Shown here piece by piece: positions 40,311 to 61,889 of a stretch of 64,000 nt of DNA. Numbering within the stretch: position 1 is the first letter of the stretch; each line of letters begins with the position of its first letter. Source of the stretch: Bradyrhizobium ottawaense (lineage in GTDB: Bacteria > Pseudomonadota > Alphaproteobacteria > Rhizobiales > Xanthobacteraceae); contig NZ_LT629693.1 in NCBI RefSeq assembly GCF_900099825.1, forward strand, positions 7,699,001 through 7,763,000, given 5' to 3'. The translations under genes were made by a program, and so were the position numbers. The notes beneath the pieces are model-generated. The model saw nothing but the letters and a program-made list of their open reading frames with translations, was not told the origin of the DNA and did not search any database.

Positions 40311-40324
40311 CTATGCAAAATCGG
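40311..40324 (-). promoter_or_regulatory. TTTTGCATAG element 1
   Basis: Reverse strand reads CCGATTTTGCATAG, 64 nt before the ABC exporter start. One of five identical copies in the window; forms a divergent pair with the element at 40427. Confidence 0.75.
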
Positions 40325-40426
40325 CCGGTCGCGGAGGCCAAATTATTCGAATGAGCGAAATCAAATTCCGATCTGATGGGACTCCGAGCCTCCATTTCGA
40401 TATCGTGGGTGTCGTCGTCCTGTGGT

Positions 40427-40440
40427 CGGATTTTGCATAG
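40427..40440 (+). promoter_or_regulatory. TTTTGCATAG element 2
   Basis: CGGATTTTGCATAG, 69 nt before the ATG at 40510. Points away from element 1. Confidence 0.75.
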
Positions 40441-40509
40441 ACGACGCCATGCCTCGATAGACATGATTGGCGAAACCGGTCTCGTCGTGGCCGTTGAGCC
40501 AAAACACGA

Positions 40510-40833
40510 ATGAGGATCCAGGAGATGCCCATCTCGATTTCAATGATTGTTCTGAGCTCGCAACTGGTTATGCCGGTCGCCGACGGTGTGCCGAAGTTCG
40601 ATATCGCGCGGAGCTGCAAGCTGGACATGGCTGCCACCGCCGGCCTCGCTGTCGATCAGTCCGGGGAGACCTGCATCAGAGACGAACGGAAAGCAAAGCA
40701 ACAGCTCTCGGGTCAATGGTCGAAATTCCCGGCAGCAAGCCGGGCAAGCTGTACCTCGCAAGAGAGTATCGGCGGCACGCCGAGCTACGTCAGTCTGCAG
40801 ACCTGCCTCCAAATGGGGCAGTGGGCTCGGTAG
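40510..40833 (+). CDS. Secreted small protein with paired cysteines
   Basis: The 107-residue protein has a short hydrophobic N-terminus (ISISMIVLSSQLVMPVADG) and four conserved-looking cysteines (SCKLD, TCIRDE, SCTSQE, TCLQMG). The phrase QSGETCIRDERKAKQQLSGQ and the ending PSYVSLQTCLQMGQ match a small exported family I have seen in Bradyrhizobium without a known function. ATG 40525 directly after CCAGGAG is an alternative start. Confidence 0.7.
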   Translation: MRIQEMPISISMIVLSSQLVMPVADGVPKFDIARSCKLDMAATAGLAVDQSGETCIRDERKAKQQLSGQWSKFPAASRASCTSQESIGGTPSYVSLQTCLQMGQWAR

Positions 40834-40914
40834 CTGCTCCGGTCCGGATTTTTCACTCAGGCGATCGGGGCTGGCTGCCTCCAGGTAATGCGCTTTACGA
40901 AGAACGTCACTGCG

Positions 40915-41357
40915 TCAGGCGTAATGATCGAACTCGCTCAGTGCGATTCGCACCTCTCGGGCAAAATCAACAAGCGATACTGTGAAGGCGCCGAGGGCAA
41001 CCATGAATAGGATGGCCACCCCGCGCTCATGTTGAATCTGGAGCAGCGCGCTTGCGAATGCGATGACGACAAGTAGGGTCCCCGAAATACTGCCGATCAC
41101 GGCCCAGAAGATTGCACGGTTCAGCATCTCTGCGCGCCGCATCAAACGTGGGAGATCGGCCTTTAGCCGGCTTCTAACGGTGTCGTCGTCGGGGATCCCG
41201 TTGAGGACAATCGTCCTGTCAACGATGCGATTCAGACGGGAAATCAGGACTGCAATGAAGGCCGCCAGTGCGCCGAGAAGGAACGCGGGCGCAGCCGCCT
41301 GCGAAATGACATGCGATAGCTGACTGACTGACTGACTGACGGCGTATCGGGAAACAT
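40915..41357 (-). pseudogene. DUF2721 membrane protein, out of frame at a (TGAC)5 repeat
   Basis: The reverse strand encodes LSHVISQAAAPAFLLGALAA followed by FIAVLISRLNRIVDRTIVLN and, from residue MRRAEM onward, two more helices: a DUF2721 protein. The natural start ATG at 41357 (MFPDTPSVSQ...) is in another frame, because a tetranucleotide tract, five copies of TGAC at 41321-41340, lies between. Six or three copies would restore the frame. No in-frame ATG, GTG or TTG precedes the first helix. As it stands, only a 76-residue tail from ATG 41145 could be made. Confidence 0.7.
41321..41340. repeat. Tetranucleotide microsatellite (TGAC)5
   Basis: Five perfect tandem copies of TGAC (TCAG on the coding strand) lie within the N-terminal coding region of the DUF2721 gene and determine its reading frame. 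Confidence 0.95.
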
Positions 41358-41367
41358 TGGGTCCAGC

Positions 41368-41511
41368 CTAGGTCACCCGCTGCAGCGGCGGCTGCTTCCA
41401 CTTGCCATCCGTTGCGGCTTCTTTCGACCAGTAGAGGCGCATGATCATGGAGAATGGTCCCTTTGCGGCCGGTATGGGGGCGCCAAATTTGGTCCATTGG
41501 ACGCCGATGGC
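41368..41511 (-). pseudogene. DUF1214 C-terminal remnant
   Basis: The reverse strand encodes TKFGAPIPAAKGPFSMIMRL then YWSKEAATDGKWKQPPLQRV and a stop, the C-terminal tail of a DUF1254/DUF1214 protein (compare MRLYWPRPEAPSVLPAGQG in the intact gene at 56155). Upstream of this tail the homology ends and element 3 follows within 26 nt, so the body of the gene has been deleted. Confidence 0.7.
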
Positions 41512-41536
41512 ATTTTCTCGGAATTGCAGCGGGCGA

Positions 41537-41550
41537 CTATGCAAAAACCA
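41537..41550 (-). promoter_or_regulatory. TTTTGCATAG element 3
   Basis: Reverse strand reads TGGTTTTTGCATAG. It points into the DUF1214 remnant and, beyond it, the DUF2721 gene. Confidence 0.7.
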
Positions 41551-41677
41551 ACCATTTTGCAGATTCGGACCCGATTTCGCTGTAACGGCAGCCCAAAACA
41601 ACCAGTATCGGCGGCTCTGATTTTCCGTAAAATGCCTTGCTACCATCGATTGAATTGCACAAAGCAGGACAGGGGTA

Positions 41678-43258
41678 TTGCCCGAGCCGTCCCACGAAGA
41701 TCAATTGCTTCTCGCCACCTTGCCGCCGTCAAAGGGGCAGATTCGGTTGGCGCTCGGGGTCGTCGCGGTCCTTCTGCTCGCACTCGTTCTGACGATACCG
41801 TTTACGAACGTTCAGCTGGCACGTGCGGACGCTTTCATTCCAGCCTTACAGACAGGAATTGTATTCACCGACCTCGTTACCTCAGCGCTGCTATTTTCTC
41901 AATTTTCCATCACGCGCTCGCGGGCCATTTTGGTACTCGCGAATGGATTTCTCTTCACCGCCCTAGTTGTCATTTCACACGTGCTTACCTTTCCGGGCGC
42001 CTTCGCGCCAACCGGACTTCTGGGCGCTGGATTGCAAACCGCCGCATGGCTCTATGTTTTTTGGCATGCTGGACCACCATTGGTCGTGATCAGTTACGTT
42101 TTGCTCAAGGATACGGAGAAAAGCACAGCCAAGTCCGAAAGCTCTCCGGCTGCTTCGATCGGCTGGAGCGTGGGGCTGGTGATCTCGGTCGCGTGGGCAC
42201 TGACCTGGGTTGCCATCGAGGCGGACAGGTTCTTGCCACCAATGATGCTCAACAACATTGAGACGAACCGAATTGTCACTTTAACCACTGGCGGATCGGT
42301 TGCTTTGTTGAACGCCACCGCACTTGCGCTGCTGTGGTTCCGGCGACGCTCCGTGCTTGATCTGTGGCTCTTGGTTATGTGTTGCGCGTGGCTGGCCGAA
42401 ACGGTGGTAACCGCCAACGTCGCAGGCCGCTTCACTTTCGGATTTTATGCCAGCCGGCTTTATGCTTTCGTCGCCGTGTTTTCGGTTCTGCTCGTGCTGC
42501 TGTCCGAAACGATGACGCTCTATTCGAACCTCGTCTATTCGGCGTTGAAGCGGCGCAGTAACAGCGAGGGACGACAGATCGCCATGGACGCGATGGCGGC
42601 CTCCATCGCTCACGAGGTCAGTCAGCCAATTGGTGCGATGAGCTTTAACGGCGAAGCAGCGTTGATGCTTCTCGCGCAAACGCCGCCAAATCTTGAAGAA
42701 GCGCGCGCTGCCCTTGAAGCCATTGTCAGTGATGGAATCCGCGCGGCCACGGTGATTGCAAGTCTTCGGGCGATGTTCAAGAGAAACACCCCACAAAGGG
42801 TTAGTTTCGATGTCAACGATCTTCTTCAGGAGGTACTTAAGCTGGTCGATTCCGACCTTTGGTCTCACAAAGTCACAGTCTCGCTCGAACTGCGCGGGCC
42901 TCTGCCACAACTGCGGGCCGATCGAGTTCAGTTGCAGCAAGTTCTTCTGAATTTGTTTACGAACGCGATCGAGGCAATGCAACCCGTTACCGATCGGGCC
43001 CGACTGCTACGGATCAAGTCCGATTTCATTCAAGACCATTCTGGAGTGTTGATTACCATTGAAGATACCGGCACTGGAATAGATTTTAAAGACAAAGATC
43101 GGATCTTCGAACCGTTCGTTTCGACGAAGCTAAGGGGCACGGGAATTGGGTTAGCGATCTGCAAATCGATCGTAGAAGCCCATGGCGGGCATCTTCGCGC
43201 ATCAGCCAACCATCCCCACGGCGCGGTCTTTCACGTCGCATTGCCGGAAAGTGAGTAG
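41678..43258 (+). CDS. MASE4-type membrane sensor histidine kinase
   Basis: The 526-residue kinase has a MASE4-like N-terminal membrane domain (about eight helices to residue 285): ADAFIPALQTGIVFTDLVTS, then FSITRSRAILVLANGFLFTA, then SHVLTFPGAFAPTGLLGAGL. HisKA has IAHEVSQPIGAMSFNGEAAL with the phosphoacceptor His. HATPase_c motifs are NLFTNAIEAM, EDTGTGI, GTGIGLAIC. Start is TTG 41678 after AGGGG. No response regulator is adjacent; the nearest is the FixJ-like gene at 52663. There is no TTTTGCATAG element upstream. Confidence 0.88.
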   Translation: MPEPSHEDQLLLATLPPSKGQIRLALGVVAVLLLALVLTIPFTNVQLARADAFIPALQTGIVFTDLVTSALLFSQFSITRSRAILVLANGFLFTALVVISHVLTFPGAFAPTGLLGAGLQTAAWLYVFWHAGPPLVVISYVLLKDTEKSTAKSESSPAASIGWSVGLVISVAWALTWVAIEADRFLPPMMLNNIETNRIVTLTTGGSVALLNATALALLWFRRRSVLDLWLLVMCCAWLAETVVTANVAGRFTFGFYASRLYAFVAVFSVLLVLLSETMTLYSNLVYSALKRRSNSEGRQIAMDAMAASIAHEVSQPIGAMSFNGEAALMLLAQTPPNLEEARAALEAIVSDGIRAATVIASLRAMFKRNTPQRVSFDVNDLLQEVLKLVDSDLWSHKVTVSLELRGPLPQLRADRVQLQQVLLNLFTNAIEAMQPVTDRARLLRIKSDFIQDHSGVLITIEDTGTGIDFKDKDRIFEPFVSTKLRGTGIGLAICKSIVEAHGGHLRASANHPHGAVFHVALPESE

Positions 43259-43502
43259 TGGGGTAGCGAAGTCACGCATGCCGTGTGAAGGCGACTTGAA
43301 AAACCAGATCATTCAAGGCGGACTTACCCAAGCGGGCTGCCTCAGATCGAATTCTTCGCTGCCAGGGGATCAATACGCGAAGAAGGTGAATTATCTCGCG
43401 GATCGGTGTCCGATTTTGCATAGGCAAACAGTCGCGCCGGTTCGTATAGCTACTCCCGCGCGTCCGCCAGAGTTGTGCGAGGCTCGCAGGGAGCGATCGA
43501 TC
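43259..43502. promoter_or_regulatory. Upstream region of the DUF992 operon with element 4
   Basis: The gap after the kinase gene carries CCGATTTTGCATAG at 43410-43423 on the forward strand, 79 nt before ATG 43503. The rest shows nothing recognisable. Confidence 0.65.
43410..43423 (+). promoter_or_regulatory. TTTTGCATAG element 4
   Basis: CCGATTTTGCATAG, exact consensus copy, 79 nt before the DUF992 start. Confidence 0.75.
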
Positions 43503-43994
43503 ATGCGCAGCTACCGATTTATCAGGGTTGTAAGCCTTGCCGCGCTGATACTTCTGGGCCCGGCGTTTGCCTCGGCTCAGCAGCCCCCTCCGGGGGTCCA
43601 GGCCGGCATGCTGACCTGCAACCTCGCGCCGAGCATCGGCCTGATTGTCGCCGAGAGCCAGCGGATGAGTTGTCGGTATGCACCCAACGGGCCTTATCCG
43701 CCCGAGAACTATAATGGTGTGCTGAACACGGTCGGGCTCGAACTCGGCATCACCGCAGGTGGAGCTATGGCGTGGGGCGTGTTTGCTCCAACTCAGGGGA
43801 CGCCGATCGGAGCGTTGACCGGCGAGTACGTGGGCGCCAGCGGCGACATCGCAGTCGGGGTCGGAGTCGGCGCCAACGTCCTGTTCGGCGGCTCAAACCG
43901 AACGATTGCGCTGCAACCCTTGTCGGTCGAGGGGCAGGCGGGCTTGAACGTGTCCCTGGGAGTGTCGGGTCTGACACTAGCTTTCGCGCCCTGA
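43503..43994 (+). CDS. DUF992 secreted protein
   Basis: The 163-residue protein has a signal peptide (MRSYRFIRVVSLAALILLGP, cut after ASAQ). The mature part has the DUF992 blocks AGMLTCNLAPSIGLIVAESQ, MSCRYAPNGPYPPENYNGVL, GAMAWGVFAPTQGTPIGALT and GANVLFGGSNRTIALQPLSV. Two cysteines probably pair. It is periplasmic or envelope associated; function unknown. A paralogue is at 61001. The TAXI protein gene starts 5 nt after its stop. Confidence 0.88.
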   Translation: MRSYRFIRVVSLAALILLGPAFASAQQPPPGVQAGMLTCNLAPSIGLIVAESQRMSCRYAPNGPYPPENYNGVLNTVGLELGITAGGAMAWGVFAPTQGTPIGALTGEYVGASGDIAVGVGVGANVLFGGSNRTIALQPLSVEGQAGLNVSLGVSGLTLAFAP

Positions 43995-43999
43995 CGCCG

Positions 44000-45319
44000 A
44001 TGGCAAGCCCCACGATCACACGGTGGCCCCGGTGGCTGAGGCTGACGATCGTGGGGGCTGTGACCGCGGGGGTCATAACCGGCGGTTGGCTTTCCTATCG
44101 TTACTTCGCCAAGCCAATCGTTTTGACGGTGGCGGCCGGCTCGGTTGATGGCGAGGCACTGTCGCTGATTTCGGCGGTCGCTGCGCGCCTGACGGCCTCG
44201 AACGCGCATGTTCGATTGAAAGTGGTGGATAGCAATACCTCAGCCAAGGCATCGGAACTGCTGGCTGCGCACAAGGCCGATCTCGCTGTCGTTCGTGGCG
44301 ATACCGGCGGTCTGGCGGATGCAAGGAGCGTGCTCCTGCTGACCCACGGCGTGGTTCTGCTCATGGCGCCTTCGACCTTGAGCGGCGATAGTCTTGGCGA
44401 TCTTCGCGATACGACGATTGGCGTCATCGGAGGGGCGATTAACCGGCCTGTGGTGGATGCACTGAAGCAGGTTTATCCGTTTGATCGCGCCAAGGTCATT
44501 TTCCAGGATATTGCCGTAGCCGACGGTGCCACCGCGCTTTCGTCCGGCCGGGTTCACGCCCTTCTGGCGGTTGTCCCGCTGACCGAGAAGTACCTGGCCA
44601 AAGTCAGACAGTTCTTCCAGCAGGACCGGACCAGGGGATCGGTTCCGAAACTGATCGAAATCGAGTCAGCCGGAGCCGTCGCCAACATCGCGCAGTATTA
44701 CGAGAGTTACGACATCCCAAAGGGGACCTTGCGAGGCGCGCCACCTGTTCCATCCGACGATCTGACGTCGCTTCGCGTTTCGTATTTTCTTGTTGCCAAC
44801 AAGTCGGTGGGTAACAGCGCCATCACCGACCTGACGCAGTCCCTGGTCGACGTTCGAAGGGACCTGTTGTCCCAATATCCGATATTGGCGCAAGCGGCCG
44901 AGCCGAGCACCGACGCCGATGCGCTGATTCCCATCCATCCGGGAGCTGCGACGTACTACAACGGAAACCAGCAGAGCTTTCTCGATAAGTATGACGACAA
45001 GCTCTATTACGGGTCGTTGCTGCTGGGATCACTTCTCTCCGTCATTGTTGCTGCCTGGCGCTTCGCGGGTTCGGGAGCCGCGCCCCGTAGCATGCTCGAA
45101 CCGCTCTATGAGTTCGGCAATGAGATCAAGGGTGCCAAGAGCGAGGCCGAGCTGGAAGAAATCGAAAAACGTATCGACGATATCCTGAAGTCCGAACTTG
45201 CCAGGAACGCGAACGGAGAGGGGGCTGACAGCCCCGATATGGCCGCGCTAGGTCTGACAGCCCACAGGCTTCAATACCTGATGAGCCATCGCCGGCTCTC
45301 GCTTCACAAGTCGTCATAG
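44000..45319 (+). CDS. TAXI-family TRAP solute-binding protein with membrane anchors
   Basis: The 439-residue protein starts MASPTITRWPRWLRLTIVGA, with an N-terminal membrane anchor. The core resembles TAXI TRAP binding proteins: LTVAAGSVDGEALSLISAVA, LAAHKADLAVVRGDTGGLAD and GVIGGAINRPVVDALKQVYP. A second helix (YYGSLLLGSLLSVIVAAWRF) is followed by a charged coiled tail (KGAKSEAELEEIEKRIDDIL). No DctQM permease is adjacent; with two membrane segments and a cytoplasmic tail it may signal rather than transport. Co-transcribed with DUF992. Confidence 0.82.
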   Translation: MASPTITRWPRWLRLTIVGAVTAGVITGGWLSYRYFAKPIVLTVAAGSVDGEALSLISAVAARLTASNAHVRLKVVDSNTSAKASELLAAHKADLAVVRGDTGGLADARSVLLLTHGVVLLMAPSTLSGDSLGDLRDTTIGVIGGAINRPVVDALKQVYPFDRAKVIFQDIAVADGATALSSGRVHALLAVVPLTEKYLAKVRQFFQQDRTRGSVPKLIEIESAGAVANIAQYYESYDIPKGTLRGAPPVPSDDLTSLRVSYFLVANKSVGNSAITDLTQSLVDVRRDLLSQYPILAQAAEPSTDADALIPIHPGAATYYNGNQQSFLDKYDDKLYYGSLLLGSLLSVIVAAWRFAGSGAAPRSMLEPLYEFGNEIKGAKSEAELEEIEKRIDDILKSELARNANGEGADSPDMAALGLTAHRLQYLMSHRRLSLHKSS

Positions 45320-45370
45320 GATCGGGAATTGTCGCCGCGCGTTGTGGTCGCGACGTCCACGGAATTTCGC

Positions 45371-48300
45371 CTAGGTTCGCATACTGGTAGCGCCGCGCGT
45401 TACCGAGGCGGAATTGAGTGGATCGGAGCCTCGGCCTTGCTCGCATTCCTTCAGCATGAACCTGGCCACGGGGTCGGTGGGAAAGTCATCGAGAATAGCG
45501 CGATAGGCGCGCTCCGCCGCCGCAAAATCGCCGGCCTCCATTCGTTGTGAGGCGCGCGATGTCATCACGCCAAGCTGCTCGTCCCGATCGCGGACCCTCA
45601 GGTCTGGGTCGTCGCTGGCGCGAAGCGCGAGCAATTCATAGATCATGAATTCGGTCTTGCGGCCCTTCACCTGAACCCGCTTGAGCGGCCGCGCGACTAT
45701 ATCGGCCTGCACCTGGTCGAAAATGCTGTCGCTGATGCAGATGGTGGTGCCAAACAGCTTGTTGATGCCTTCAAGGCGGGCGGCAACGTTCACGCCGTCC
45801 CCCAAGGCCGTGTAGCTCAGCCGGGTCGAAGAGCCGACATTGCCGACCAGAACGGTGGCGCAATTGAGCCCGATCCTAATGTGGATTCGCGGTCGTCCCT
45901 CCGCCTCCCAGGCATCGTTGACGCGCCCCATGCGGCGCGCCGCACGCAACGCCGCGGCGCAGGCGCGTAGAATGTGGTCTGGGCGTTCGACCGGCGCATT
46001 CCAGAACGCCATGATGCCATCGCCGATGAATTTATCGACGGTGCCACCCTCCTGCGAGATCGCGGACGAGACCTCCTCGAGATAGGTCGATATCTGGACC
46101 AGAAGGTCGTCAGGCGCGAGCGTTTCGGAGTGGCTGGAAAAATTCTCCAGATCGGAAAAGAACACGGTGAGGAATCGCGGCTCGACGCCCAGGGTCAATG
46201 GAATGCCCGACTTGATGAGCTGGCGGACCACGTCGAGCGGAACGAAGGAGGAGAACGATTTCAGCGAGCTTCGCAGCAGCGAAGCCGCCGATTCCAGCTT
46301 CGCAATCTCCTGGATATTCGATGGTGGACGCGCCGGCGTATCAAAATTGAGGCTTTCGATCGCCTGCAATTGCCGGGACACGTTTTCGACCGGCCGCGAC
46401 AGCCGGCGAGAGGCGAAAAAGATGAAGAACAGCTCGATCACGGTGAGACCAATAATCACGATCATCATCAGCCGATTGGTCTTCTTCAACGTTCCGACGA
46501 AATCGTCGATCGGCGTCAACGTGATCACCTGCCAGGGTTGACCGAAGCCGCCCGGGAAATTGGCGAAAGCTGCGATAAAATCCCCCCCGTTCGTTGGCGA
46601 TTGAAAGACAAAGTTGTTGGCCCCCGTACGAGCGTGCTGGCGGTGAGCCTCGCGCACCTCGGGATCGTCGATATCAGCCAGGGTTGCGATCTTGAGAGCT
46701 CCGTTCTCGATGCGAACGCCTTTCTGCTTGTCCGGGAAGGCGATGATCTTGCCGTTGTTGCGGTCGGCGATGAGGGTGGTGCTGTGCGCGCTGGCCCGGT
46801 GTTTCTCGAGAAAGCGCGACAGGACATTTACGGTAATGTTGGCCGTTGCGCAGCCGACGAAGTCGACACCATGGAATATTGGAATACGCAAAAAGAGAAT
46901 CGGGAAACCGGTGTCGGGGTTGATGGAGGGTTCGGTCACCGCGAGCGTCCGCGTCGTTTTGGCGGCCTGGCAGCCGGGCAAAGCGCGGATATCGACGTCG
47001 GTGGGAACGTCATAGGCGCCGACCTGATGGGGCCATATATCGAAGAATTTGCGATGGCGAATCCTTGAGAACGAAAACGTGATTGCATCGATGTAGCTGG
47101 CGTGCCAGTTCGCTGCGGCTGGAATCCGGGGATCCGCGAGCCGGCGATCCTCGTCAATTCGCGTCACGACCCGATGATAGCCATCCTCGAAGCTGACGTA
47201 GATGGCGTCGATATGCGCGGCCGAGGTGAGCCCGCGGTACAGCAGGTCATTGCTCTGCTCGGTGCGGAAATAGCCGGGATCGGCGCCTGCTACTTCGGCG
47301 AGAAAGCGCAGCGGGCTTTCCGTGTTCTCGACCAAATTCTCGGTGCGGTCGATGCCGGCCTGGCTGGTCTGCGCGACCGCATCGTTCAGGATCGATACCA
47401 TGCCGGCCGAATTCTTGTTGTAATTGTAGATCAAGATGAAAATGAGAACGGGAATGCTGAGGCCGATGAACAGCAACGCCATGATCAGGCTTAGTCTTGG
47501 CCGCCCCATCGTGGCGGGCCACGGAAGCGTGCCCAATCGGGCCATGGCGGCCTTCAGGCTGCGGCGGCTCCGGTACGCGACCAGCGCCGCAATCGCCAGC
47601 CCGATCGGCACCAGCAGGAGCGGAACGAACCAGCGCCGCAGGCTGCCGTCATTTCCATCCCAGATCAGTGCCGCGGGTAGCGTATCGTCGGCCAGCAGCC
47701 CGAGTTGTCGATAGCTCGCGGCGATGCCTTGCCAGCGCGCGGGATCCTGCTCGCCGATCCGGCCGGCGTCGCGTCCGACCAATATCGCGGTATGCTCCGC
47801 CTCAAACAGCAGGGCCTCACGGCTCTTTTTCGCCGAATAGCTCCGCAGGATCAAATCGACCGTCGCCTCCTTATGCGCGAGGGCATAGGCCCAGCCTTTC
47901 ACGCTGGCGGCCCTGAACGCGGCCACCCGGTCCGGGTGGGCTTTCACCTCCGCCTCGGCAGCGCACAAATTGTCGCCGTAGAAATCGATGCCGGATGCGG
48001 CGGGCGCGAAGGTGCGGTAGGCCGCGCCCAGTTGATCAAGGACGAACGGCTCGTTGGTGCTGTAAGCGACCATTGCGTCGGCGCGGCCGGCCAGGAGATC
48101 GCGCGGGTCGCCCCCGTGAGCGACGCGCGGCAGGGCGTTATAGTCGCCCCCTTCGCGCGCAAGCATCGCCGCGATCTCGTCGCTGCCTGGCGTGTCCATC
48201 AGCGTACGGCCGCGCAGTTCCGACACGTTGCTGATATCAGCTCGGCGCGCGACCAGGATGACGGCGGGGGAGCGCTGGAAGATGGCGGCCAACACGACCA

Positions 48301-48664
48301 GCCGGCGGCCCATCGACCATTCGCGCAGGACGCTGGCGTTGCAGACGCCGAAATCGGCCTTGCCGCTGGCAACCGCTTCGGCGACATCGATGCCGGGACC
48401 GCCTTCGCGGATGACGACGTCGAGGCCCGCGTCGCGGTAAAAACCTTGTTCGAGCGCCTGGTAGTAGCCCGCGAACTGAAACTGATGATTCCATTTCAGC
48501 TGCATCGATATCTGATCCAGCGCGGCGGCAGGATGCGATGCCAGCAGGAGCAGGCAAACGGCGATGACCGGCCGTTTCGATCTATCCAACTGCAGTGCAA
48601 ATGCAGCAAGCAGCCAAGCGGCCGTTGCAGTGCCAAATGGCTTGATGAACTCATGCGGTCGCAT
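45371..48664 (-). CDS. Substrate-binding-protein/Cache/HAMP/class III nucleotidyl cyclase chimera
   Basis: The 1097-residue protein starts at ATG 48664. After a signal/anchor, residues about 45-325 are an NMT1/THI5-like periplasmic binding domain (ISMQLKWNHQFQFAGYYQAL and GLDVVIREGG, VASGKADFGV). Then come two membrane helices, a Cache-like sensor region, another helix, a HAMP segment (RRLSRPVENVSRQLQAIESL), a class III cyclase domain with metal Asp residues in FFSDLENFSSHSE and FIGDGIMAFWNAP and the ATP region RLSYTALGDGVNVAARLEGI, and a helical TPR-like tail. It should make cAMP (or cGMP) in response to a periplasmic ligand. Element 5 lies 102 nt upstream. Confidence 0.9.
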   Translation of the reverse strand: MRPHEFIKPFGTATAAWLLAAFALQLDRSKRPVIAVCLLLLASHPAAALDQISMQLKWNHQFQFAGYYQALEQGFYRDAGLDVVIREGGPGIDVAEAVASGKADFGVCNASVLREWSMGRRLVVLAAIFQRSPAVILVARRADISNVSELRGRTLMDTPGSDEIAAMLAREGGDYNALPRVAHGGDPRDLLAGRADAMVAYSTNEPFVLDQLGAAYRTFAPAASGIDFYGDNLCAAEAEVKAHPDRVAAFRAASVKGWAYALAHKEATVDLILRSYSAKKSREALLFEAEHTAILVGRDAGRIGEQDPARWQGIAASYRQLGLLADDTLPAALIWDGNDGSLRRWFVPLLLVPIGLAIAALVAYRSRRSLKAAMARLGTLPWPATMGRPRLSLIMALLFIGLSIPVLIFILIYNYNKNSAGMVSILNDAVAQTSQAGIDRTENLVENTESPLRFLAEVAGADPGYFRTEQSNDLLYRGLTSAAHIDAIYVSFEDGYHRVVTRIDEDRRLADPRIPAAANWHASYIDAITFSFSRIRHRKFFDIWPHQVGAYDVPTDVDIRALPGCQAAKTTRTLAVTEPSINPDTGFPILFLRIPIFHGVDFVGCATANITVNVLSRFLEKHRASAHSTTLIADRNNGKIIAFPDKQKGVRIENGALKIATLADIDDPEVREAHRQHARTGANNFVFQSPTNGGDFIAAFANFPGGFGQPWQVITLTPIDDFVGTLKKTNRLMMIVIIGLTVIELFFIFFASRRLSRPVENVSRQLQAIESLNFDTPARPPSNIQEIAKLESAASLLRSSLKSFSSFVPLDVVRQLIKSGIPLTLGVEPRFLTVFFSDLENFSSHSETLAPDDLLVQISTYLEEVSSAISQEGGTVDKFIGDGIMAFWNAPVERPDHILRACAAALRAARRMGRVNDAWEAEGRPRIHIRIGLNCATVLVGNVGSSTRLSYTALGDGVNVAARLEGINKLFGTTICISDSIFDQVQADIVARPLKRVQVKGRKTEFMIYELLALRASDDPDLRVRDRDEQLGVMTSRASQRMEAGDFAAAERAYRAILDDFPTDPVARFMLKECEQGRGSDPLNSASVTRGATSMRT

Positions 48665-48766: not shown

Positions 48767-48780
48767 CTATGCAAATTCGG
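48767..48780 (-). promoter_or_regulatory. TTTTGCATAG element 5
   Basis: Reverse strand reads CCGAATTTGCATAG, 102 nt before the cyclase start and after the LssY_C stop, so the cyclase has its own element. Confidence 0.7.
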
Positions 48781-50850: not shown

Positions 50851-50864
50851 CTATGCAAAATCGG
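50851..50864 (-). promoter_or_regulatory. TTTTGCATAG element 6
   Basis: Reverse strand reads CCGATTTTGCATAG (exact consensus), 59 nt before the barrel protein start. Confidence 0.75.
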
Positions 50865-50962: not shown

Positions 50963-51415
50963 TTACATGCAAAATTCGACTCGGTCTTCGCGATCGGCGG
51001 TACGGTTCACGGGTGCTGTGCCATTCGATGCGCGGTGCAATGTTTGAGAGGGGCTTTCACCGAATACCTTACGGTACTCGACCGAAAAGCGTCCCAATTC
51101 CAGGAAGCCGAAGCCGGTGGCAATCTCTGTCACAGTCGTGAGATGGCTATCAGTGGCGATCAACGCGCACCTTGCCTGTTGCAAGCGCAGCATTCGAAGA
51201 TGCCGGCAGGGCGGTAAGCCATGGACCCTGTGAAATGCCTTGCGAAGGGTCCTCTCGCTGATCGAAAGGGCGGCACACAGGGCCGAAATCTGGATCGGAT
51301 CGTCGACTTCGGCGAGCGCCAGAATTTCAGCCTGTTCGACGATGTCCCGGGACGGATTGTCTCGGGCTGCACGGGCTGATTCCGTCTCAGTTGTGGCTGT
51401 CAGATGAACTTTCAT
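50963..51415 (-). CDS. Short AraC-family regulator (DNA-binding domain only)
   Basis: The 150-residue protein starts MKVHLTATTETESARAARDN and consists of little more than the two-HTH AraC domain: ISALCAALSISERTLRKAFH (first HTH) and TEIATGFGFLELGRFSVEYR followed by KVFGESPSQTLHR (second HTH and family signature). The usual N-terminal sensor domain is missing. It follows the DUF3551 gene and may be in its transcription unit. The sequence GGCAGAACGTTCTGCC, a perfect palindrome at 51443-51458, is directly upstream. Confidence 0.78.
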   Translation of the reverse strand: MKVHLTATTETESARAARDNPSRDIVEQAEILALAEVDDPIQISALCAALSISERTLRKAFHRVHGLPPCRHLRMLRLQQARCALIATDSHLTTVTEIATGFGFLELGRFSVEYRKVFGESPSQTLHRASNGTAPVNRTADREDRVEFCM

Positions 51416-51549: not shown

Positions 51550-51876
51550 TCAATTCGGCGGAGGACCGACGGGAAGCGGAGAAAAAGCCGGTCCGTCTGT
51601 GTTCGCGTCCGGAGGCGGTGCGGCGTTGTCGCCGGCCTGATACCACGGGTTTGCGAGACATTCGTCGAACGTGCCGGAAGCCGTGGCCTGGCATTGCTGA
51701 TAGCTGGCAAAACTGCAGTTGCTCCAGCCGGGATAATCGTCGCCCTGAAGGCAGAACGGGTATCGGGTCGAAACCTGTGCATGTGCGCTCGCCGTGCATT
51801 GGATCGCGGCAACAACAAGCAGCGTCGCGGTCCATTTCGGCTTCACGCCTCGTTTCCGAGTACTGCAATGTGTCAT
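51550..51876 (-). CDS. DUF3551 secreted protein
   Basis: The 108-residue protein has a signal peptide ending SAHAQ. The mature part is a compact four-cysteine DUF3551 domain: RYPFCLQGDDYPGWSNCSFA then SYQQCQATASGTFDECLANP and WY, followed by a Pro-rich disordered tail. ATG 51876 is preferred over 51903; element 7 is 62 nt upstream. Function unknown; these are abundant in Bradyrhizobium. Confidence 0.82.
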   Translation of the reverse strand: MTHCSTRKRGVKPKWTATLLVVAAIQCTASAHAQVSTRYPFCLQGDDYPGWSNCSFASYQQCQATASGTFDECLANPWYQAGDNAAPPPDANTDGPAFSPLPVGPPPN

Positions 51877-51938
51877 GGCGGCAGCATCACTTTCGCGGTT
51901 CATCGAGACCGGACGCTAGGACGCCGACAGCGCACCGC

Positions 51939-51952
51939 CTATGCAAAATCGG
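51939..51952 (-). promoter_or_regulatory. TTTTGCATAG element 7
   Basis: Reverse strand reads CCGATTTTGCATAG (exact consensus), 62 nt before the DUF3551 start. Divergent pair with element 8. Confidence 0.75.
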
Positions 51953-52011: not shown

Positions 52012-52025
52012 CGGTTTCTGCATAG
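52012..52025 (+). promoter_or_regulatory. TTTTGCATAG element 8
   Basis: CGGTTTCTGCATAG, 79 nt before ATG 52105. One C replaces a T of the consensus. Confidence 0.65.
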
Positions 52026-52662: not shown

Positions 52663-53307
52663 TCAGGGGTTTTCGACGCCCCTTGCTGCCGACGGTGCAA
52701 GCAATCCCGTCTTCTCGGCGATAGAGACGGCCTCCGCAAAAGAATGCACCTGCAGCTTTTCCATCACCATATGCCGGTGCGCCTTGATGGTTCGCTCGGA
52801 TGTACCAAGCTGAAAGGCAATCTGCTTGTTCATCTTGCCCCGAACCATAAGCGCAAAGACTTCGCTTTCCCGAGGTGTCAGGGTCGCTATCAAGGATCTG
52901 AGTGAATTGATCTGATCCTGCTGCTGCTTCGTCGCCTCAAATCCGGCGAGGGCGCGGCGGATCGCATCGAGCAGCGTTTCCTTGGATACGGGTTTCAGCA
53001 GAAAGTCTTCGGCGCCGGCCTTGATCGCGCGCACGCTGGTGGGGACGTCACCACGGCCGGTCATGAAGACGATCGGCCAGCCGTGCGACAGTTTCGCGAG
53101 TTCTTCCTGAAGCTGTAGCCCATCAAACGATGGCATGTTCACATCGAGCAGAATGCAACCGGGCTTGGCAGTCTCAATGCCGCGCAAAAACGAGATTGCG
53201 GACTCATAGTCGGCAATCTCGAAGCCGGAGACCTTCAACACACGCGAAATGGCCGCCCGGAAAGAGGCGTCGTCGTCGACAATGTGTATGACAGGCGCGC
53301 CGGTCAT
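52663..53307 (-). CDS. FixJ/NarL-type response regulator
   Basis: The 214-residue regulator starts MTGAPVIHIVDDDASFRAAI. The receiver domain has the acidic DDD pocket, phosphoacceptor Asp in CILLDVNMPSF and Lys in FLLKPVS. The C-terminal LuxR-type HTH reads LTPRESEVFALMVRGKMNKQ and IAFQLGTSERTIKAHRHMVM. The style is that of FixJ/TodT-like regulators. No kinase is adjacent; MASE4 and PAS orphan kinases lie 10-15 kb away. GAGAGA precedes ATG 53307. No TTTTGCATAG element is upstream. Confidence 0.9.
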   Translation of the reverse strand: MTGAPVIHIVDDDASFRAAISRVLKVSGFEIADYESAISFLRGIETAKPGCILLDVNMPSFDGLQLQEELAKLSHGWPIVFMTGRGDVPTSVRAIKAGAEDFLLKPVSKETLLDAIRRALAGFEATKQQQDQINSLRSLIATLTPRESEVFALMVRGKMNKQIAFQLGTSERTIKAHRHMVMEKLQVHSFAEAVSIAEKTGLLAPSAARGVENP

Positions 53308-54708: not shown

Positions 54709-54722
54709 CTATGCAAAATCGG
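54709..54722 (-). promoter_or_regulatory. TTTTGCATAG element 9
   Basis: Reverse strand reads CCGATTTTGCATAG (exact consensus), pointing to the HlyD gene. Divergent pair with element 10. Confidence 0.75.
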
Positions 54723-54758
54723 CGCGGTGAAAATCGTCGTACCAGACGATCGCCGTGC

Positions 54759-54772
54759 TGGTTTTTGCATAG
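54759..54772 (+). promoter_or_regulatory. TTTTGCATAG element 10
   Basis: TGGTTTTTGCATAG, 80 nt before the DUF2092 start. Confidence 0.75.
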
Positions 54773-54852
54773 TCGATGCAGCGTGACTTCTCCATGGTGG
54801 CCGGCAAGCGAGACCATTCGCCGGAATCATCGTGACTAACAAGGAGAGTGTT

Positions 54853-55653: not shown

Positions 55654-55973
55654 TCCGCATATCGAAAACTCTCGTTCGTCTCTCGACTGTCGCGATCGTC
55701 GGCGCCGCGGCGCTGTTGTGGAACGGGCAGTCACCGCTGGATTCGAACGCAGCCCTGGTCTCATCGGCCGGGGCGAGGATCGGGCGACCGCTTACGCCGA
55801 TGAGCTATGCCGGCGTGGCCCGCCGGACGACACGGCGCGCCGTTGCCGTGGGCGCGGTGGCGGCGGGAGCTGCCTATGCGGCGCCGGTCGTGGTGGCGCC
55901 TGTGCCGGTTGTTCCGGGGCGTTGCGTGCAGGCCGTCGATCCCTACGGGCGCATTTACACGCGCTGCTATTAG
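55650..55973 (+). CDS. Secreted protein with TPMSYAGVARRT motif
   Basis: The 107-residue exported protein has an N-terminal hydrophobic segment, then RIGRPLTPMSYAGVARRTTR, an Ala/Val-rich stretch and a C-terminal YGRIYTRCY. The TPMSYAGVARRT block recurs in the C-terminal part of the gene at 61982. It overlaps the DUF2092 stop by 4 nt, so the two are translationally coupled. Function unknown; possibly a membrane-associated partner of DUF2092. Confidence 0.75.
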   Translation: MIRISKTLVRLSTVAIVGAAALLWNGQSPLDSNAALVSSAGARIGRPLTPMSYAGVARRTTRRAVAVGAVAAGAAYAAPVVVAPVPVVPGRCVQAVDPYGRIYTRCY

Positions 55974-56056
55974 GACTGGCGCCGGGCGGCGGGTGTAGTC
56001 AGCCGTGGTCGACAAAATATGTGCGAAGAGCGGACATCCAGGCGAGTCAGGATTGC

Positions 56057-56070
56057 CCGTTTTTACATAG
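56057..56070 (+). promoter_or_regulatory. TTTTGCATAG element 11
   Basis: CCGTTTTTACATAG, 84 nt before ATG 56155; A replaces the G of GCATAG. Confidence 0.7.
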
Positions 56071-56154
56071 CCAGCCATCGCACAGGGCGCCAAACATTTA
56101 CCTGTTACCCAAGCTCGCTTGACCGCAAGCTCCGAACCGGAAGGAATTGTTCTG

Positions 56155-57594: not shown

Positions 57595-57721
57595 TGGCAC
57601 TGGGACCAATCGTGCTGCCCGGAAAGTGACTTGAGCGCGCGCGAACTCGTGCCGGCCGTTTTTGGCGGGCGCGAGTTCGAGCGTGACTCACAGGTTCTAA
57701 AGCAGCAATCGGAAAAGGAAG
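57595..57721. other. Short gap before HdeA-like pseudogene
   Basis: No gene or motif recognised. Confidence 0.4.
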
Positions 57722-58085
57722 ATGGTGAGCAACTACATACGGAGCGCCGGTCCTCGCAGCAATGCCCGGCCTGGCGGCAATACAATCGGCGCGCGCGCAG
57801 CCCAACCAGAGCGCCTACGCAGATAGCGAAGGATATATCGACGTTCAGACGCTGACCTGCGCTCAACTTGCGGGCACCTGGCAGGAAGAGGCGCCTCACC
57901 ACGTAGCACAGCGGCTGCTACCGCGCTCTCACACGTAGGCATCGTCTCAACGTCAAGAGAGCAAAGAGCGAGCAAGAAGTCATTCAGTACTGCAAGGCCA
58001 AGCCCGGCAAGCCGGTCATCGAAGCGATTGCGATCGTGTTCAAGGACGTGCAGGCGGCGCCTGGTATCAAGATGAAGCCGGTCTG
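57722..58085 (+). pseudogene. HdeA/HdeB-like acid-stress chaperone, broken
   Basis: Three pieces in different frames make one gene. MVSNYIRSA (57722) leads after a shift into VLAAMPGLAAIQSARAQPNQ (signal peptide), then SAYADSEGYIDVQTLTCAQL with GTWQEEA and a stop. After a scrambled 60-nt part, VKRAKSEQEVIQYCKAKPGK, then PVIEAIAIVFKDVQAAPGIK. The two cysteines (LTCAQL and QYCKAK) are the conserved HdeA pair. Its 3' part is open into the AraC gene, which hides the true AraC start. Confidence 0.7.
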
Positions 58086-58113
58086 TAGGAAACCGAATGG
58101 GAGGATTTTTCCG

Positions 58114-59079
58114 TTGGGGGCTGCTAGCGACGTACCATTACACAGCCTTAGCTTTGACGAATATTCTGAGACGGTTATTGGAGCGACGGTGAATTTCCTG
58201 CTGACTGGTCCCAGTCAAGCTCCTTGGTCGGTCGGTCATTGCAAATTGGGGGCGATCGTCTTGCAATTTGGCGTGGAGGGAGGCTCCAAGATTTTGCACG
58301 GCATTTCGCGTTCGGATGCTTTGACCTTCATCTTTCAGGACGAGAAAATTGCCGATCGCGTGATTTTCGACGGTCAAATCCTTCAGCCTCAGGACTTCGT
58401 GGTGCTTCCGCCTGGGAGCGATTTTACGTTCGCGTCGCGCGGCATCCATCGTTGGATGTCGATTTCGATGCCCGTTGGTCTCTTTGAAACGTTTGCTATT
58501 GAGACCGGCAGAAAACATCTTGCATGGGTCGAGAAAGAAAAGTGCGTCATTTCGTCTCCGGAGCAATTGCTCAGATGTTTGTCCGCGGCAGCCGCGAGCA
58601 CCGCCGTTCTGATACGCGAGGAGCAAACGCCGACGCTCCACGGATTTAGTATTGCCCGTCTATTAAACGCATTGATCGCTGCAATTGCGGATTTGGATAA
58701 CGAAATGTGTCTCCCAACAGAAAAGTCACGATTGTCCAGCGACACCGTGACAAAAGCGTTGAGGTATGCCCGTGGTCGGAAATGGGAAGGGCTTCAGGTT
58801 GCTGACCTGGCCCTCGCGGCTGACGTAACAAGCCGGACGCTGTTGAGGACGTTCCGGCAACAGCTGGGCGTTGGATCGGCAAGCTATCTCAAGCTACGTC
58901 AACTCAACATGGTCCGCCGTGCACTCCGCGGAAAATGTGAGTCGTCAGGTAAAGTCACAAACATCATGAGCGAACACGGCGTTACAGAATTCGGTCGTTT
59001 TGCCTCGGAATACAAAGCCCTTTTTGGAGAGCGCCCATCGGAGACGGTGGCGAGGTCGCGATCGCAAAGAGTGGGCTGA
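58114..59079 (+). CDS. AraC-family transcriptional regulator
   Basis: From TTG 58114 (GGGAGG at 58099-58104) the 321-residue regulator has an N-terminal sensor domain (about 1-200; SDVPLHSLSFDEYSETVIGA and LPPGSDFTFASRGIHRWMSI) and a C-terminal AraC domain: ALRYARGRKWEGLQVADLAL, AADVTSRTLLRTFRQQLGVG and VTEFGRFASEYKALFGERPS. The open frame extends upstream into HdeA-like sequence, which I exclude. It has no TTTTGCATAG element and is a candidate regulator of those units. Confidence 0.82.
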   Translation: MGAASDVPLHSLSFDEYSETVIGATVNFLLTGPSQAPWSVGHCKLGAIVLQFGVEGGSKILHGISRSDALTFIFQDEKIADRVIFDGQILQPQDFVVLPPGSDFTFASRGIHRWMSISMPVGLFETFAIETGRKHLAWVEKEKCVISSPEQLLRCLSAAAASTAVLIREEQTPTLHGFSIARLLNALIAAIADLDNEMCLPTEKSRLSSDTVTKALRYARGRKWEGLQVADLALAADVTSRTLLRTFRQQLGVGSASYLKLRQLNMVRRALRGKCESSGKVTNIMSEHGVTEFGRFASEYKALFGERPSETVARSRSQRVG

Positions 59080-59341
59080 GGCGATGCGCTTCAGCCGGCG
59101 TCGTCAGCCGCAATGCGCAAATTCGTCAAGTGCAGTTGGCGCCGCCGAGCGCACCGAAAAGAAGCGCGGGCGCAACCGCCTGCGAAATGCATCCGACACG
59201 CGGCAGGCCGCCTTGTTGCCGGCTTTCGACGAAGCATGTGGCTTCAAGGCTAGCCTCAAGGTTGGTTGATGCCGGCGAAACAGAAGCGTTACGCTGCAGT
59301 GTATCGAATTTGCAACGGGCCAACTTCTTTCGGTTGGCTGT
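59080..59341. other. Region with DUF2721 N-terminal remnant
   Basis: On the reverse strand about 59139-59195 reads ISQAVAPALLFGALGG, matching the first helix of the DUF2721 protein at 40915-41357 (ISQAAAPAFLLGALAA). Nothing else is recognised. Confidence 0.55.
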
Positions 59342-59355
59342 CCGATTTTACATAG
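59342..59355 (+). promoter_or_regulatory. TTTTGCATAG element 12
   Basis: CCGATTTTACATAG, 76 nt before ATG 59432. Confidence 0.75.
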
Positions 59356-59431
59356 CGACCGAAAGTTGACCCAAATACTTTCGGTGCAGGCCCTCAAACT
59401 TGCGGATGATGTATTTCCAAAGGATTTGAAA

Positions 59432-60175
59432 ATGAGAAAGATCGTACTCACGGCGGCGGCATTCGCTGCATTCGCTGGCCCTGCGTTCGCTGCCGACCTG
59501 CCGCAGCGGGCTTACGCCCCGGTCAAGGCTCCCGTAATGGCTGCGGTCTACGACTGGACCGGCTTCTACATCGGCGGTAACGGCGGATATGGAACGAGCC
59601 GCAATTGCTGGGGTGTCGTACCGGCAGGTGGCGTGGTCGTTCCTGACGGTTGCCACAGTCAGTCGGGAGGCGTCCTCGGTGGACAGGTGGGCTACCGTTG
59701 GCAGGCCGGTCAGTTTGTGTTCGGTTTGGAAGGCCAGGGCGACTGGGCAAGCATGCGCAGTTCACACGTGAGTATTGCTAATCCGCTTCTTACCGATTCT
59801 TCCAAGGTTACTAGCTTGGGCCTTTTCACCGGCCAGATTGGCTATGCCTGGAACGCGGCGTTGCTGTATTTGAAAGGCGGCGCGGCGGTGACGAACAACA
59901 ACCTTCTTCAAGCGACCACGTTTGGAGGCGTTGGCCTGAACTATGCGACCTCAACCCGTTGGGGCGGCGCCATCGGCGTTGGATTTGAATACGGCTTCAC
60001 GCCGAACTGGTCGGCCGCCATTGAATACGATCGCCTGATCATGGGTGATGCCAACAATTCGTTCTCGGTACCGGCAGGCGCTGCTGCTGTGGTCAATCGG
60101 GTCAGTCAGGACGTGGATCTGATCACCGTGCGCGTGAACTATAAATTCGGTGGACCCGTCGTTGCGGCATACTGA
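59432..60175 (+). CDS. Omp25/31-like outer-membrane protein
   Basis: The 247-residue porin-like protein has a signal peptide (MRKIVLTAAAFAAFAGPAFA), mature start ADLPQRAYAPVKAPVMAAVY then DWTGFYIGGNGGYGTSRNCW, and an eight-stranded barrel ending VDLITVRVNYKFGG. This is the classic Bradyrhizobium/Brucella Omp31-type layout (DWTGFYIGxNxGYG). Next gene is a paralogue, with an intercistronic hairpin. Confidence 0.92.
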   Translation: MRKIVLTAAAFAAFAGPAFAADLPQRAYAPVKAPVMAAVYDWTGFYIGGNGGYGTSRNCWGVVPAGGVVVPDGCHSQSGGVLGGQVGYRWQAGQFVFGLEGQGDWASMRSSHVSIANPLLTDSSKVTSLGLFTGQIGYAWNAALLYLKGGAAVTNNNLLQATTFGGVGLNYATSTRWGGAIGVGFEYGFTPNWSAAIEYDRLIMGDANNSFSVPAGAAAVVNRVSQDVDLITVRVNYKFGGPVVAAY

Positions 60176-60192
60176 TCGTTGATAGCCAACCC

Positions 60193-60218
60193 GAGGGCCG
60201 GCTTGGCAGCCGGCCCTC
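60193..60218. terminator. Intercistronic 10-bp hairpin
   Basis: GAGGGCCGGC (60193-60202), loop TTGGCA, GCCGGCCCTC (60209-60218). Perfect stem without a T tract, between two Omp genes; may act as partial terminator or 3' stabiliser. Confidence 0.55.
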
Positions 60219-60255
60219 GTCGGCCTTGTGGCTCTTTTGGGGAGAAGTTTTCGTG

Positions 60256-60972
60256 ATGGACGGCATGAAGAAATTTATCATTGGAGCAGCATTTGCTGCA
60301 GTCGGTTCCACTTGCGCCTTTGCGGCGGACCTTCCCATGCAGGCCTATAAGAGCGCGCCCGTGGCGGCCCAGGTCTATAACTGGACCGGCCTTTATGTCG
60401 GTGTGAACGGCGGTTACGGCTGGGGCTCGCAGGATCCGCTGACGCTCGTCTCTAACAGGTTCGACCGTACAAGCTTCAATATCAGTGGCGGGATGCTCGG
60501 CGGCACCGTGGGGGCCCAAATCCAGCAGGGATATGTGGTGCTCGGCCTCGAGGGCGATCTTGATTGGGCGAACATCAAGGGCAACGGCATCTTAAATCCG
60601 GCTATCGCTGGCGTCGGGCAGGGTATTACGCTCGATATCGCGTCCAAGATCAGCGCCGTTGGAACGGCAAGGGCGCGTGCTGGCGTCGCTATGAACAATT
60701 GGCTGTTCTACGTGACGGGCGGTGCGGCATTTGTGAAATCGAGCGCTAACGGCACTTCAATTGCTGGCGTGCCTTGCGGTACGCTTGGTGTGCTCCAGAA
60801 TTGCGCGGCCTCCGCCTGGCGCCCTGGCATCGTTGCTGGGGTAGGCATGGAATATGGCTTCACGCCGAACTGGTCCTTGAAGGGTGAATATCTTTACACG
60901 CAGGTGATCGGGACGGGCGCAAGCGTTGACAAGCTCAACATCTTCCGTGGCGGCATCAATTATCGATTTTGA
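60256..60972 (+). CDS. Omp25/31-like outer-membrane protein, second copy
   Basis: The 238-residue protein has a signal peptide ending TCAFA and mature start ADLPMQAYKSAPVAAQVYNW, then TGLYVGVNGGYGWGSQDPLT and a barrel ending NIFRGGINYRF. It belongs to the same family as its upstream neighbour but is not closely identical. ATG 60256 follows GGGGAGAAG; Met at 60265 is an alternative. It shares the transcription unit of element 12 with the first Omp and DUF992. Confidence 0.9.
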   Translation: MDGMKKFIIGAAFAAVGSTCAFAADLPMQAYKSAPVAAQVYNWTGLYVGVNGGYGWGSQDPLTLVSNRFDRTSFNISGGMLGGTVGAQIQQGYVVLGLEGDLDWANIKGNGILNPAIAGVGQGITLDIASKISAVGTARARAGVAMNNWLFYVTGGAAFVKSSANGTSIAGVPCGTLGVLQNCAASAWRPGIVAGVGMEYGFTPNWSLKGEYLYTQVIGTGASVDKLNIFRGGINYRF

Positions 60973-61000
60973 AAATAGAAGATTCGGGTAGGGCGGTATT

Positions 61001-61477
61001 ATGAATCCTAAGGCATTTGCTCTTTGTGCAACGTTGGTTGCACTTGCCGGTCCTGTATCGGCCCAGACGCCGCCATGGACCCAAACGGGTATGCTCAGCT
61101 GCAAGCTCAACCCGAGCATTGGATTCATTATCGCCGGCCACCAGTCGATGGAGTGCCGTTTCGTGCCATCCATGCCCGGTCCCCCACAATTTTACGAAGG
61201 CGCCCTCAACACGGTGGGAATTGATATTGGGATAATCGGTGGCGGCGCCTTGGCGTGGGGCGTTCTGGCGCCTACCGCTGGCGTGCCTGCTGGCGCTCTG
61301 GCTGGCACCTATGTTGGTGCAAGCGGTGATGTGGCGCTGGGACTTGGTGTTGGAGCAAATGTTCTGGTCGGCGGATCCAACAGAAGCTTCGCGTTGCAAC
61401 CGGTATCAGTCGAGGGCTCGGTCGCGCTGGATGTCACACTTGGTCTGTCCGCACTTCAATTGAGATGGGTCCCGTGA
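61001..61477 (+). CDS. DUF992 secreted protein, second copy
   Basis: The 158-residue protein has a signal peptide (MNPKAFALCATLVALAGPVS, cut after SAQ). DUF992 blocks are TGMLSCKLNPSIGFIIAGHQ, SMECRFVPSMPGPPQFYEGA, GALAWGVLAPTAGVPAGALA and GANVLVGGSNRSFALQPVSV. About two-thirds of residues match the copy at 43503. It lies 28 nt after the second Omp gene. Function unknown. Confidence 0.88.
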   Translation: MNPKAFALCATLVALAGPVSAQTPPWTQTGMLSCKLNPSIGFIIAGHQSMECRFVPSMPGPPQFYEGALNTVGIDIGIIGGGALAWGVLAPTAGVPAGALAGTYVGASGDVALGLGVGANVLVGGSNRSFALQPVSVEGSVALDVTLGLSALQLRWVP

Positions 61478-61550
61478 GCCAGTGCACCTGGCCTTGCAGA
61501 ACACAGTTCGAGTTATGCAAGGAACGCGAAACCAGAGGGTTTAGCGCGCG

Positions 61551-61737
61551 ACATTATTTCGTTCTCGCCACGGCTGCGGCAATTGCCTGATCCAGCGCCG
61601 TGGCCCAGACGTCGCTTTCGGCCTATGTCGACAGCAACGGCTTCACCAAGGCCCACTGGCCGAAGCCTACGCCACCTTCGATCCTGCCGCCGGGCCATGG
61701 GACCTGGCAGCCGCCCGGCGTGAAACAGGTTTCTTAG
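61551..61737 (+). pseudogene. DUF1214 C-terminal remnant
   Basis: The forward strand encodes AHWPKPTPPSILPPGHGTWQ then PPGVKQVS and a stop, matching the tail of the DUF1254/DUF1214 protein at 56155 (YWPRPEAPSVLPAGQGTWQP). Upstream sequence (AQTSLSAYVDSNGFTK) is not the normal protein body, so only the 3' end remains or was copied. Confidence 0.6.
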
Positions 61738-61875
61738 CAGGCGCAGAGTTCGTGCGCCTGAGTCCGCGCCCTGGTTCAAGCAAAGCAGACATCGGCATGC
61801 TGCGCGGGCATGCGCGCGTCTGCTTTCGCGCGTCGTCCGGTAGCGAGACGGCGCGCTTTATGTTTTTCAATCGGT

Positions 61876-61889
61876 TCGTTTTTGCATAG
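61876..61889 (+). promoter_or_regulatory. TTTTGCATAG element 13
   Basis: TCGTTTTTGCATAG, 92 nt before ATG 61982. Confidence 0.75.

Follow-up and report, generated by a model that had tools for sequence, protein, structure and literature searches.

Which protein reads a short directional DNA element that recurs 13 times between positions 40311 and 61889 of a 64,000-nucleotide stretch of the Bradyrhizobium ottawaense genome (contig NZ_LT629693.1, positions 7,699,001 to 7,763,000; the whole stretch is called the window in the following), and what does it switch on? Judged from sequence, the reader is most likely a MarA-like AraC activator. The fuller account that we favour, and hold to be probable, is that an AraC-family activator uses the element as its operator, recognizing it through a DNA-binding domain of one clade; this activator would act in class II fashion, feed back on its own transcription unit, and receive input from a FixJ-like response regulator.

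The positions of all 13 copies match those given in the original prediction, a note made from the letters of the DNA alone, and its claim of 13 directional copies is borne out, as shuffled sequences give about two. The exact pattern YSGWTTTTGCATAG is present in nine of the 13 sites, while the other four (48767, 52012, 56057, and 59342) deviate by a single base. A recount confirmed five identical copies, reading CCGATTTTGCATAG, and a CATAG that is constant in all 13; the earlier arithmetic for the expected frequency of an exact 14-mer is likewise right. With up to one mismatch to TTTTGCATAG, the window holds 13 matches (2.0 expected from shuffles, largest 6), and with up to two mismatches it holds 15 (2.1 expected from 100 shuffles, largest 7). 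Since the two additional matches (27249 and 37209) have two mismatches each, the reported absence of copies from the first 40 kb holds for zero or one mismatch, but not for two. A plausible ATG lies 59-102 nt downstream of 12 of the 13 sites (the original prediction counted 11), the exception being 41537, for which a convincing start within this range was not found. The column profile reveals a conserved block of approximately 20 bp around the 13 sites, giving an extended directional element, TGnYSGWTTTTGCATAGnCR, of the same length. The individual sites are:

Site 1, 40311..40324, minus strand: CCGATTTTGCATAG; an ABC exporter gene starts 64 nt on, followed by a PLD gene (Pfam).
Site 2, 40427..40440, plus strand: an open reading frame (ORF) of 102 amino acids (aa) without Pfam match lies 84 nt downstream.
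Site 3, 41537..41550, minus strand: oriented toward a DUF2721 ORF (40915-41142), without a convincing start in the 102 nt that follow.
Site 4, 43410..43423, plus strand: DUF992 gene 79 nt downstream, then a TAXI/NMT1-like gene.
Site 5, 48767..48780, minus strand: one mismatch; gene for an NMT1-cyclase protein 102 nt downstream.
Site 6, 50851..50864, minus strand: MetA-type barrel gene 59 nt downstream, then an LssY_C gene.
Site 7, 51939..51952, minus strand: DUF3551 ORF 62 nt downstream; upstream of the AraC gene, that is, in autoregulatory position.
Site 8, 52012..52025, plus strand: one mismatch; ATG of a small ORF 79 nt downstream.
Site 9, 54709..54722, minus strand: HlyD-like gene 94 nt downstream, then a FixJ-like gene.
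Site 10, 54759..54772, plus strand: DUF2092 gene 80 nt downstream.
Site 11, 56057..56070, plus strand: one mismatch; DUF1254/DUF1214 gene 84 nt downstream.
Site 12, 59342..59355, plus strand: one mismatch; ATG of the first of two outer-membrane protein (OMP) genes 76 nt downstream, then DUF992.
Site 13, 61876..61889, plus strand: gene for a 229-aa protein (no Pfam family) 92 nt downstream, then a DUF1254/DUF1214 gene.

Sequence statistics establish not only the sites but also their direction. Among exact sites in cluster loci, only one of 126 falls inside a called gene, compared with 5095 of 7400 random points. A start is found 55-110 nt ahead of 71 of 124 sites, but ahead of only 4 of 123 flipped sites; for random non-coding points the count is 107 of 2203. 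Over a range of 30-250 nt, the figures for sites, flipped sites, and random points are 94 of 124, 50 of 123, and 430 of 2203. A simple home-made gene caller was used here, and close species are counted more than once because only identical contexts were dropped.

The directionality, the steady distance before genes, and the location in non-coding DNA would also suit an alternative-sigma promoter of which the element forms a part, with CATAG as −10 box. The promoter layout, however, makes this explanation very improbable, so that of the "common activator or alternative sigma factor" originally proposed, the activator, of a real regulon with a directional element, is the most likely reading and the sigma factor is not supported. 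In the 13-site profile there is no strong conserved block at −35 spacing upstream of the element, and a sigma-54 promoter was rejected as neither GG-N10-GC (−24/−12) nor a GG at the right distance is present. Instead, A and T peaks appear downstream, at bases 35 and 39 (first base = 0). These peaks, taken from the window sites, served as a prediction that was tested on other sites: in a non-redundant profile (123 of 160 distinct exact sites, after dropping flanks at least 70% alike), A35 reaches 44% and T39 58%. Among cluster sites outside the window, 18 of 59 have the motif xAnnnT at hexamer offset 34, where the average over all offsets is 2.8; the corresponding figures for other sites are 17 of 54 and 2.7, and in the window set 4 of 10 sites have the motif. 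The best TATAAT match is also commonest at offset 34 (36.8 of 123, as compared to 15.3 and 16.5 at the neighbouring offsets 33 and 35), a peak that displaces CATAG as the −10 box. With a −10 hexamer at bases 34-39, transcription is therefore predicted to start about 32 nt after CATAG and not, as had been suggested, 5-10 nt after it.

The fixed spacing of this hexamer places the end of the element (TAGnC) at the −35: a 17-bp spacer puts the −35 hexamer on TAGnCR, the C of which is 69% conserved, the TAG being fixed by the search. The multi-site statistics thus show an asymmetric, one-orientation site that overlaps the −35 and lies 16-18 bp before the −10. The simplest reading would be that an activator binds on top of a −35 of poor quality, in an oriented class II layout. 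Repressors also act at −35, and the overlap with the predicted −35 would also suit a repressor, either the same AraC or a different protein, that blocks it. We consider this improbable, since the −35 is poor (TAGnC versus TTGAC), which would leave the unaided promoter weak, and MarA-like proteins are described, in portions of PMC12052159 and PMC8811837, as activating from forward sites over the −35. MarA-like class II promoters, according to the relevant portion of the former source, carry a non-palindromic forward site overlapping the −35 (PMC12052159).

Recurrence of the element extends well beyond the window, so that the term "local" proved too narrow. In the own genome (8.34 Mb, one contig), 13 exact sites were found: nine in the window, three in a second cluster (on the same contig near 1.74 Mb, 6 Mb from the window), and one 680 nt beyond the window end, with a single-domain receiver gene starting 134 nt further on; this last copy is missing from the original prediction because it lies outside the window. 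With up to one mismatch, there are 32 sites compared with 2 for the reversed pattern. The 19 one-mismatch sites comprise 4 in the window, 2 in the second cluster, and 13 elsewhere, seven of the latter being inside called genes (they look like chance) and two lying 78 and 81 nt before genes with, by eye, exported-looking products. Across the genus, 223 exact sites occur in 75 of 265 genomes (reversed control 21, hand count from the table), whereas other genera of the family show one match each in 7 of 284 genomes against 4 control matches, which is background only; the family-wide survey used an exact pattern two bases longer and would overlook a diverged operator. The genome-wide scan, proposed earlier as the test that might undo the idea, did not reveal a common dispersed repeat. 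In the related clusters that were read, the families behind the sites recur (ABC exporter/PLD, DUF2721, DUF992/TAXI, MetA-type barrel, HlyD, DUF2092, DUF1254, OMP, and the 229-aa family). We conclude that the regulon is real and has an operator of its own, found in Bradyrhizobium only.

Four genes of the window are relevant to the identity of the reader:

50963..51415, minus strand: short AraC-family protein, the proposed reader; HTH_18; 150 aa from the chosen ATG, the frame being open further upstream.
51550..51876, minus strand: DUF3551 ORF between site 7 and the AraC gene (Pfam, scanned from a longer start at 51903).
52663..53307, minus strand: FixJ-like response regulator, the proposed upstream input (Pfam; NCBIfam FixJ 187 bits, cut-off 255).
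58189..59079, plus strand: AraC2, a second AraC-family protein, not favoured as reader (Pfam).

The product of 50963-51415 matches PF12833 (HTH_18, the double helix-turn-helix DNA-binding domain of the AraC/XylS family) with an E-value of 2.7e-19 and 69.6 bits (cut-off 33.6). HTH_18 and HTH_AraC are the sole Pfam matches of the 150-aa ORF, which is thus composed of a helix-turn-helix (HTH) part without sensing domain. Stop-to-stop frames span 161-249 aa in 20 of 22 short-type relatives, 307 in the window and 300 in genome G161. Relatives were assigned to the clade at cut-offs of our choice (E ≤1e-40 for the short form, ≤1e-60 for the full-length form), and genomes with at least three exact sites (30 among the 265) were termed site-rich. 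A clade member is present in all 30 site-rich genomes, as compared to a FixJ ortholog in 21 and AraC2 in 12, and genomes with a clade member average 3.5 exact sites as against 0.16 in those without. The earlier naming of a nearby AraC protein as candidate reader is supported by this co-occurrence, whereas AraC2 as reader fails the same comparison.

The FixJ-like response regulator might also bind the element directly. Each of its 23 clear orthologs (≥299 bits, a threshold of our choice; next match 261) comes from a genome with two or more sites, a weaker homolog is found in seven of the nine site-rich genomes without ortholog, and a loose dyad around TGCA can be drawn by eye. We nevertheless regard direct binding as unlikely: the clear ortholog is missing from 9 of 30 site-rich genomes, and weaker homologs occur in 184 of 265 genomes (E ≤1e-60) regardless of sites. 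Seven outer pairs of the dyad show no covariation beyond column make-up, a weak test of limited power, as the left half is constrained by the search pattern; a dimer site gains no support from it. FixJ fails co-occurrence as sole reader. The short AraC occurs in the same 23 genomes as the FixJ-like ortholog, plus G250, and lies within 2 kb of it in 21 of 24 genomes; in G161 it lies elsewhere and in G225 on another contig, while G250 has no ortholog.

Of the nine site-rich genomes lacking a FixJ ortholog, seven (G119, G144, G145, G169, G233, G241, and G272) have a clade gene within 3 kb of a site. The FixJ-ortholog-less clusters of G119, G145, G169, G197, G100, and G046 contain an AraC of the same clade, mostly full-length. 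Among ten FixJ-less loci fetched for a site, a clade AraC was not found in the stretches read (G074, G144, G133, G102, G210, G181, G165, G071, G091, and G111). A short clade AraC of G169 (L142:5386-5871), a genome without FixJ ortholog, sits on a long branch and is a possible intermediate.

Autoregulatory placement was established for the full-length form using 43 tblastn pieces (≥150 bits, beginning within the first 10 residues): nine have a sense site (score ≥13) within 300 nt upstream, while the shuffle mean is 0.175 and the largest of 40 shuffles 1. Six of the nine lie 89-100 nt before the start, the others at 156, 204, and 217. These placements also bear on the idea that another regulator travelling with the clusters reads the element. 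Co-occurrence by itself does not distinguish between the genes of a cluster that travels as a unit. On the other hand, sense sites precede full-length clade AraC genes in several different loci, and when FixJ-like, clade AraC, AraC2, receiver, and kinase genes were compared in loci holding any of them, the clade was the only one present in all six FixJ-less genomes read (G119, G145, G169, G197, G100, and G046). We therefore give this idea little credence.

Bound to an operator that overlaps the poor −35 hexamer (TAGnCR) 17 bp before the −10 hexamer, the AraC activator would bring in RNA polymerase with sigma-70 as class II activators do, with transcription starting approximately 32 nt after CATAG. 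Binding by this protein, activation rather than repression, the FixJ input, and the start sites are inferences. In the window, site 7 precedes DUF3551 and AraC and site 9 precedes HlyD and the FixJ-like gene, and the order site, HlyD, FixJ-like, AraC is found in G013, G044, G253, G095, G258, and G177. Since a site precedes each of these gene orders, both regulators are probably under the element, pointing to a positive loop. The feedback would act through the site in front of the transcription unit that contains the activator gene, while the FixJ-like regulator encoded in this cluster would probably feed a two-component signal into the AraC switch. The output would be a set of largely envelope-type proteins. 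A clade AraC was not found in the 30 kb read of the second cluster of the own genome, and its sites would therefore depend on the window AraC. The window FixJ-like regulator could likewise act on that cluster in trans, where its counterpart is cut short at 121 aa. This copy (L032:15875-16240) retains the receiver domain only, with five stops in the stretch to 16522.

Several observations weigh against the AraC protein as reader. Co-occurrence is confounded by clusters travelling together, and AraC2-bearing genomes are also always site-bearing (16 of 16 with at least two sites). Of the 54 clade-bearing genomes, 24 have fewer than three exact sites; among the 36 that carry the full-length form, 6 have none; and 27 of the 75 site-bearing genomes have no clade member by our cut-offs, seven of them with two sites. 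The clade gene of G074 and G250 is far from every exact site, and full-length places within 5 kb of a site number at least 16 of the 44 checked, among the matches listed. The upstream test is also passed by 2 of 43 antisense windows and by 9 of 114 regions upstream of genes from ten loci; the latter control is biased, these loci having been fetched for holding a site. A 12-row subclade, visible in the tree described below, lacks a site before its own genes. The −10 signal is shown by about a third of the sites only, including 4 of 10 in the window set. Finally, E. coli eutS, which the distant relative EutR targets, gave no site match (best score 1.0); the resemblance of TTGCCGAATTT, seen by eye to be shared before eutS, carries no weight at this score and was not used.

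How the two forms of the activator are related was addressed with a tree of the DNA-binding domain (96 rows, 105 columns, midpoint root; rows with fewer than 80-85 domain residues dropped), in which 35 of 93 inner branches are open. AraC2 stands apart (100/98). The short-type group comprises 23 rows (99/98); the second group comprises 61 rows, of which one is not full-length (99/92). Support for the branch uniting both, with EutR outside, is only 95/62 and long branches were flagged, for which reason the two groups are likely, but only likely, to be sisters. A tentative extension, which we think somewhat doubtful, is that one operator is served by two kinds of AraC protein, a full-length and probably ligand-sensing one in some Bradyrhizobium species and a sister HTH-only form in others, the latter having lost its sensor and passed to the control of a two-component system of the FixJ type, with positive feedback. 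Should this hold, the input to the regulon would have been exchanged and its DNA code retained, which might offer a natural example of a single operator used by both an activator with a sensor and one without. B. australiense WSM 1791 encodes a relative of the short AraC. A further short-AraC relative (65% identity) is encoded on a short contig titled Acidobacteria metagenome-assembled genome (L187), perhaps a mis-binned Bradyrhizobium contig.

The closest known systems include MarA/SoxS/RamA of enteric bacteria: portions of PMC12052159 and PMC8811837 describe small AraC-family activators with little beyond the DNA-binding domain, whose asymmetric site has a set orientation and overlaps the −35 of sigma-70 promoters. 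The site sequence appears to differ, however, the genes are different, and here a response regulator is part of the same cluster. No MarA or SoxS model is among the NCBIfam matches of the short AraC, and, in raw counts, the published marbox fits with two mismatches at best in seven of the 13 sites (six of the seven reversed) and with three in the other six. The curated models nearest to the DNA-binding domain are AndR (92 bits) and EutR (80 bits), far below their cut-offs of 350 and 319, so that equivalog status is not reached; the short form, moreover, is without the N-terminal part. FixJ-type two-component regulons are similar in that the window cluster combines a FixJ-like regulator with histidine kinase genes beside it. 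They differ in that the best NCBIfam match (FixJ, 187 bits) stays below the cut-off of 255 and that the regulator does not occur wherever the sites do (ortholog in 21 of 30 site-rich genomes). Overall, the mechanism seems to be of a familiar kind, and the switch and gene set seem to be undescribed. In agreement with the original prediction, no description of the element or regulon was found among the open-licence papers listed, a search that a sequence inside a figure would escape.

With respect to the genes served, many products are exported, membrane, or envelope proteins by family, and the "envelope programme" proposed earlier is apt as a description of product families but not as a function. 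For DUF1254/DUF1214, DUF992, DUF2092, DUF3551, and the 229-aa family, the element provides an address and a testable switch. The 229-aa protein (61982-62671) has an exported-looking N-terminus and recurs in many related clusters; neither Pfam nor NCBIfam gave a match. Histidine kinases in or near the cluster are of the MASE4 type (41678-43258) and the PAS type (35511-37148), and one past the window end has a below-cut-off solute-binding match. The 1097-aa protein behind site 5 (45371-48664, minus strand) is an unusual fusion of an NMT1/THI5-like solute-binding and a nucleotide cyclase domain, with an additional weak, below-cut-off Cache match. A small HdeA-like protein (L031:273-629; E 1e-4, 23 bits, cut-off 22), encoded between DUF1254 and a receiver gene, recurs in sister clusters.

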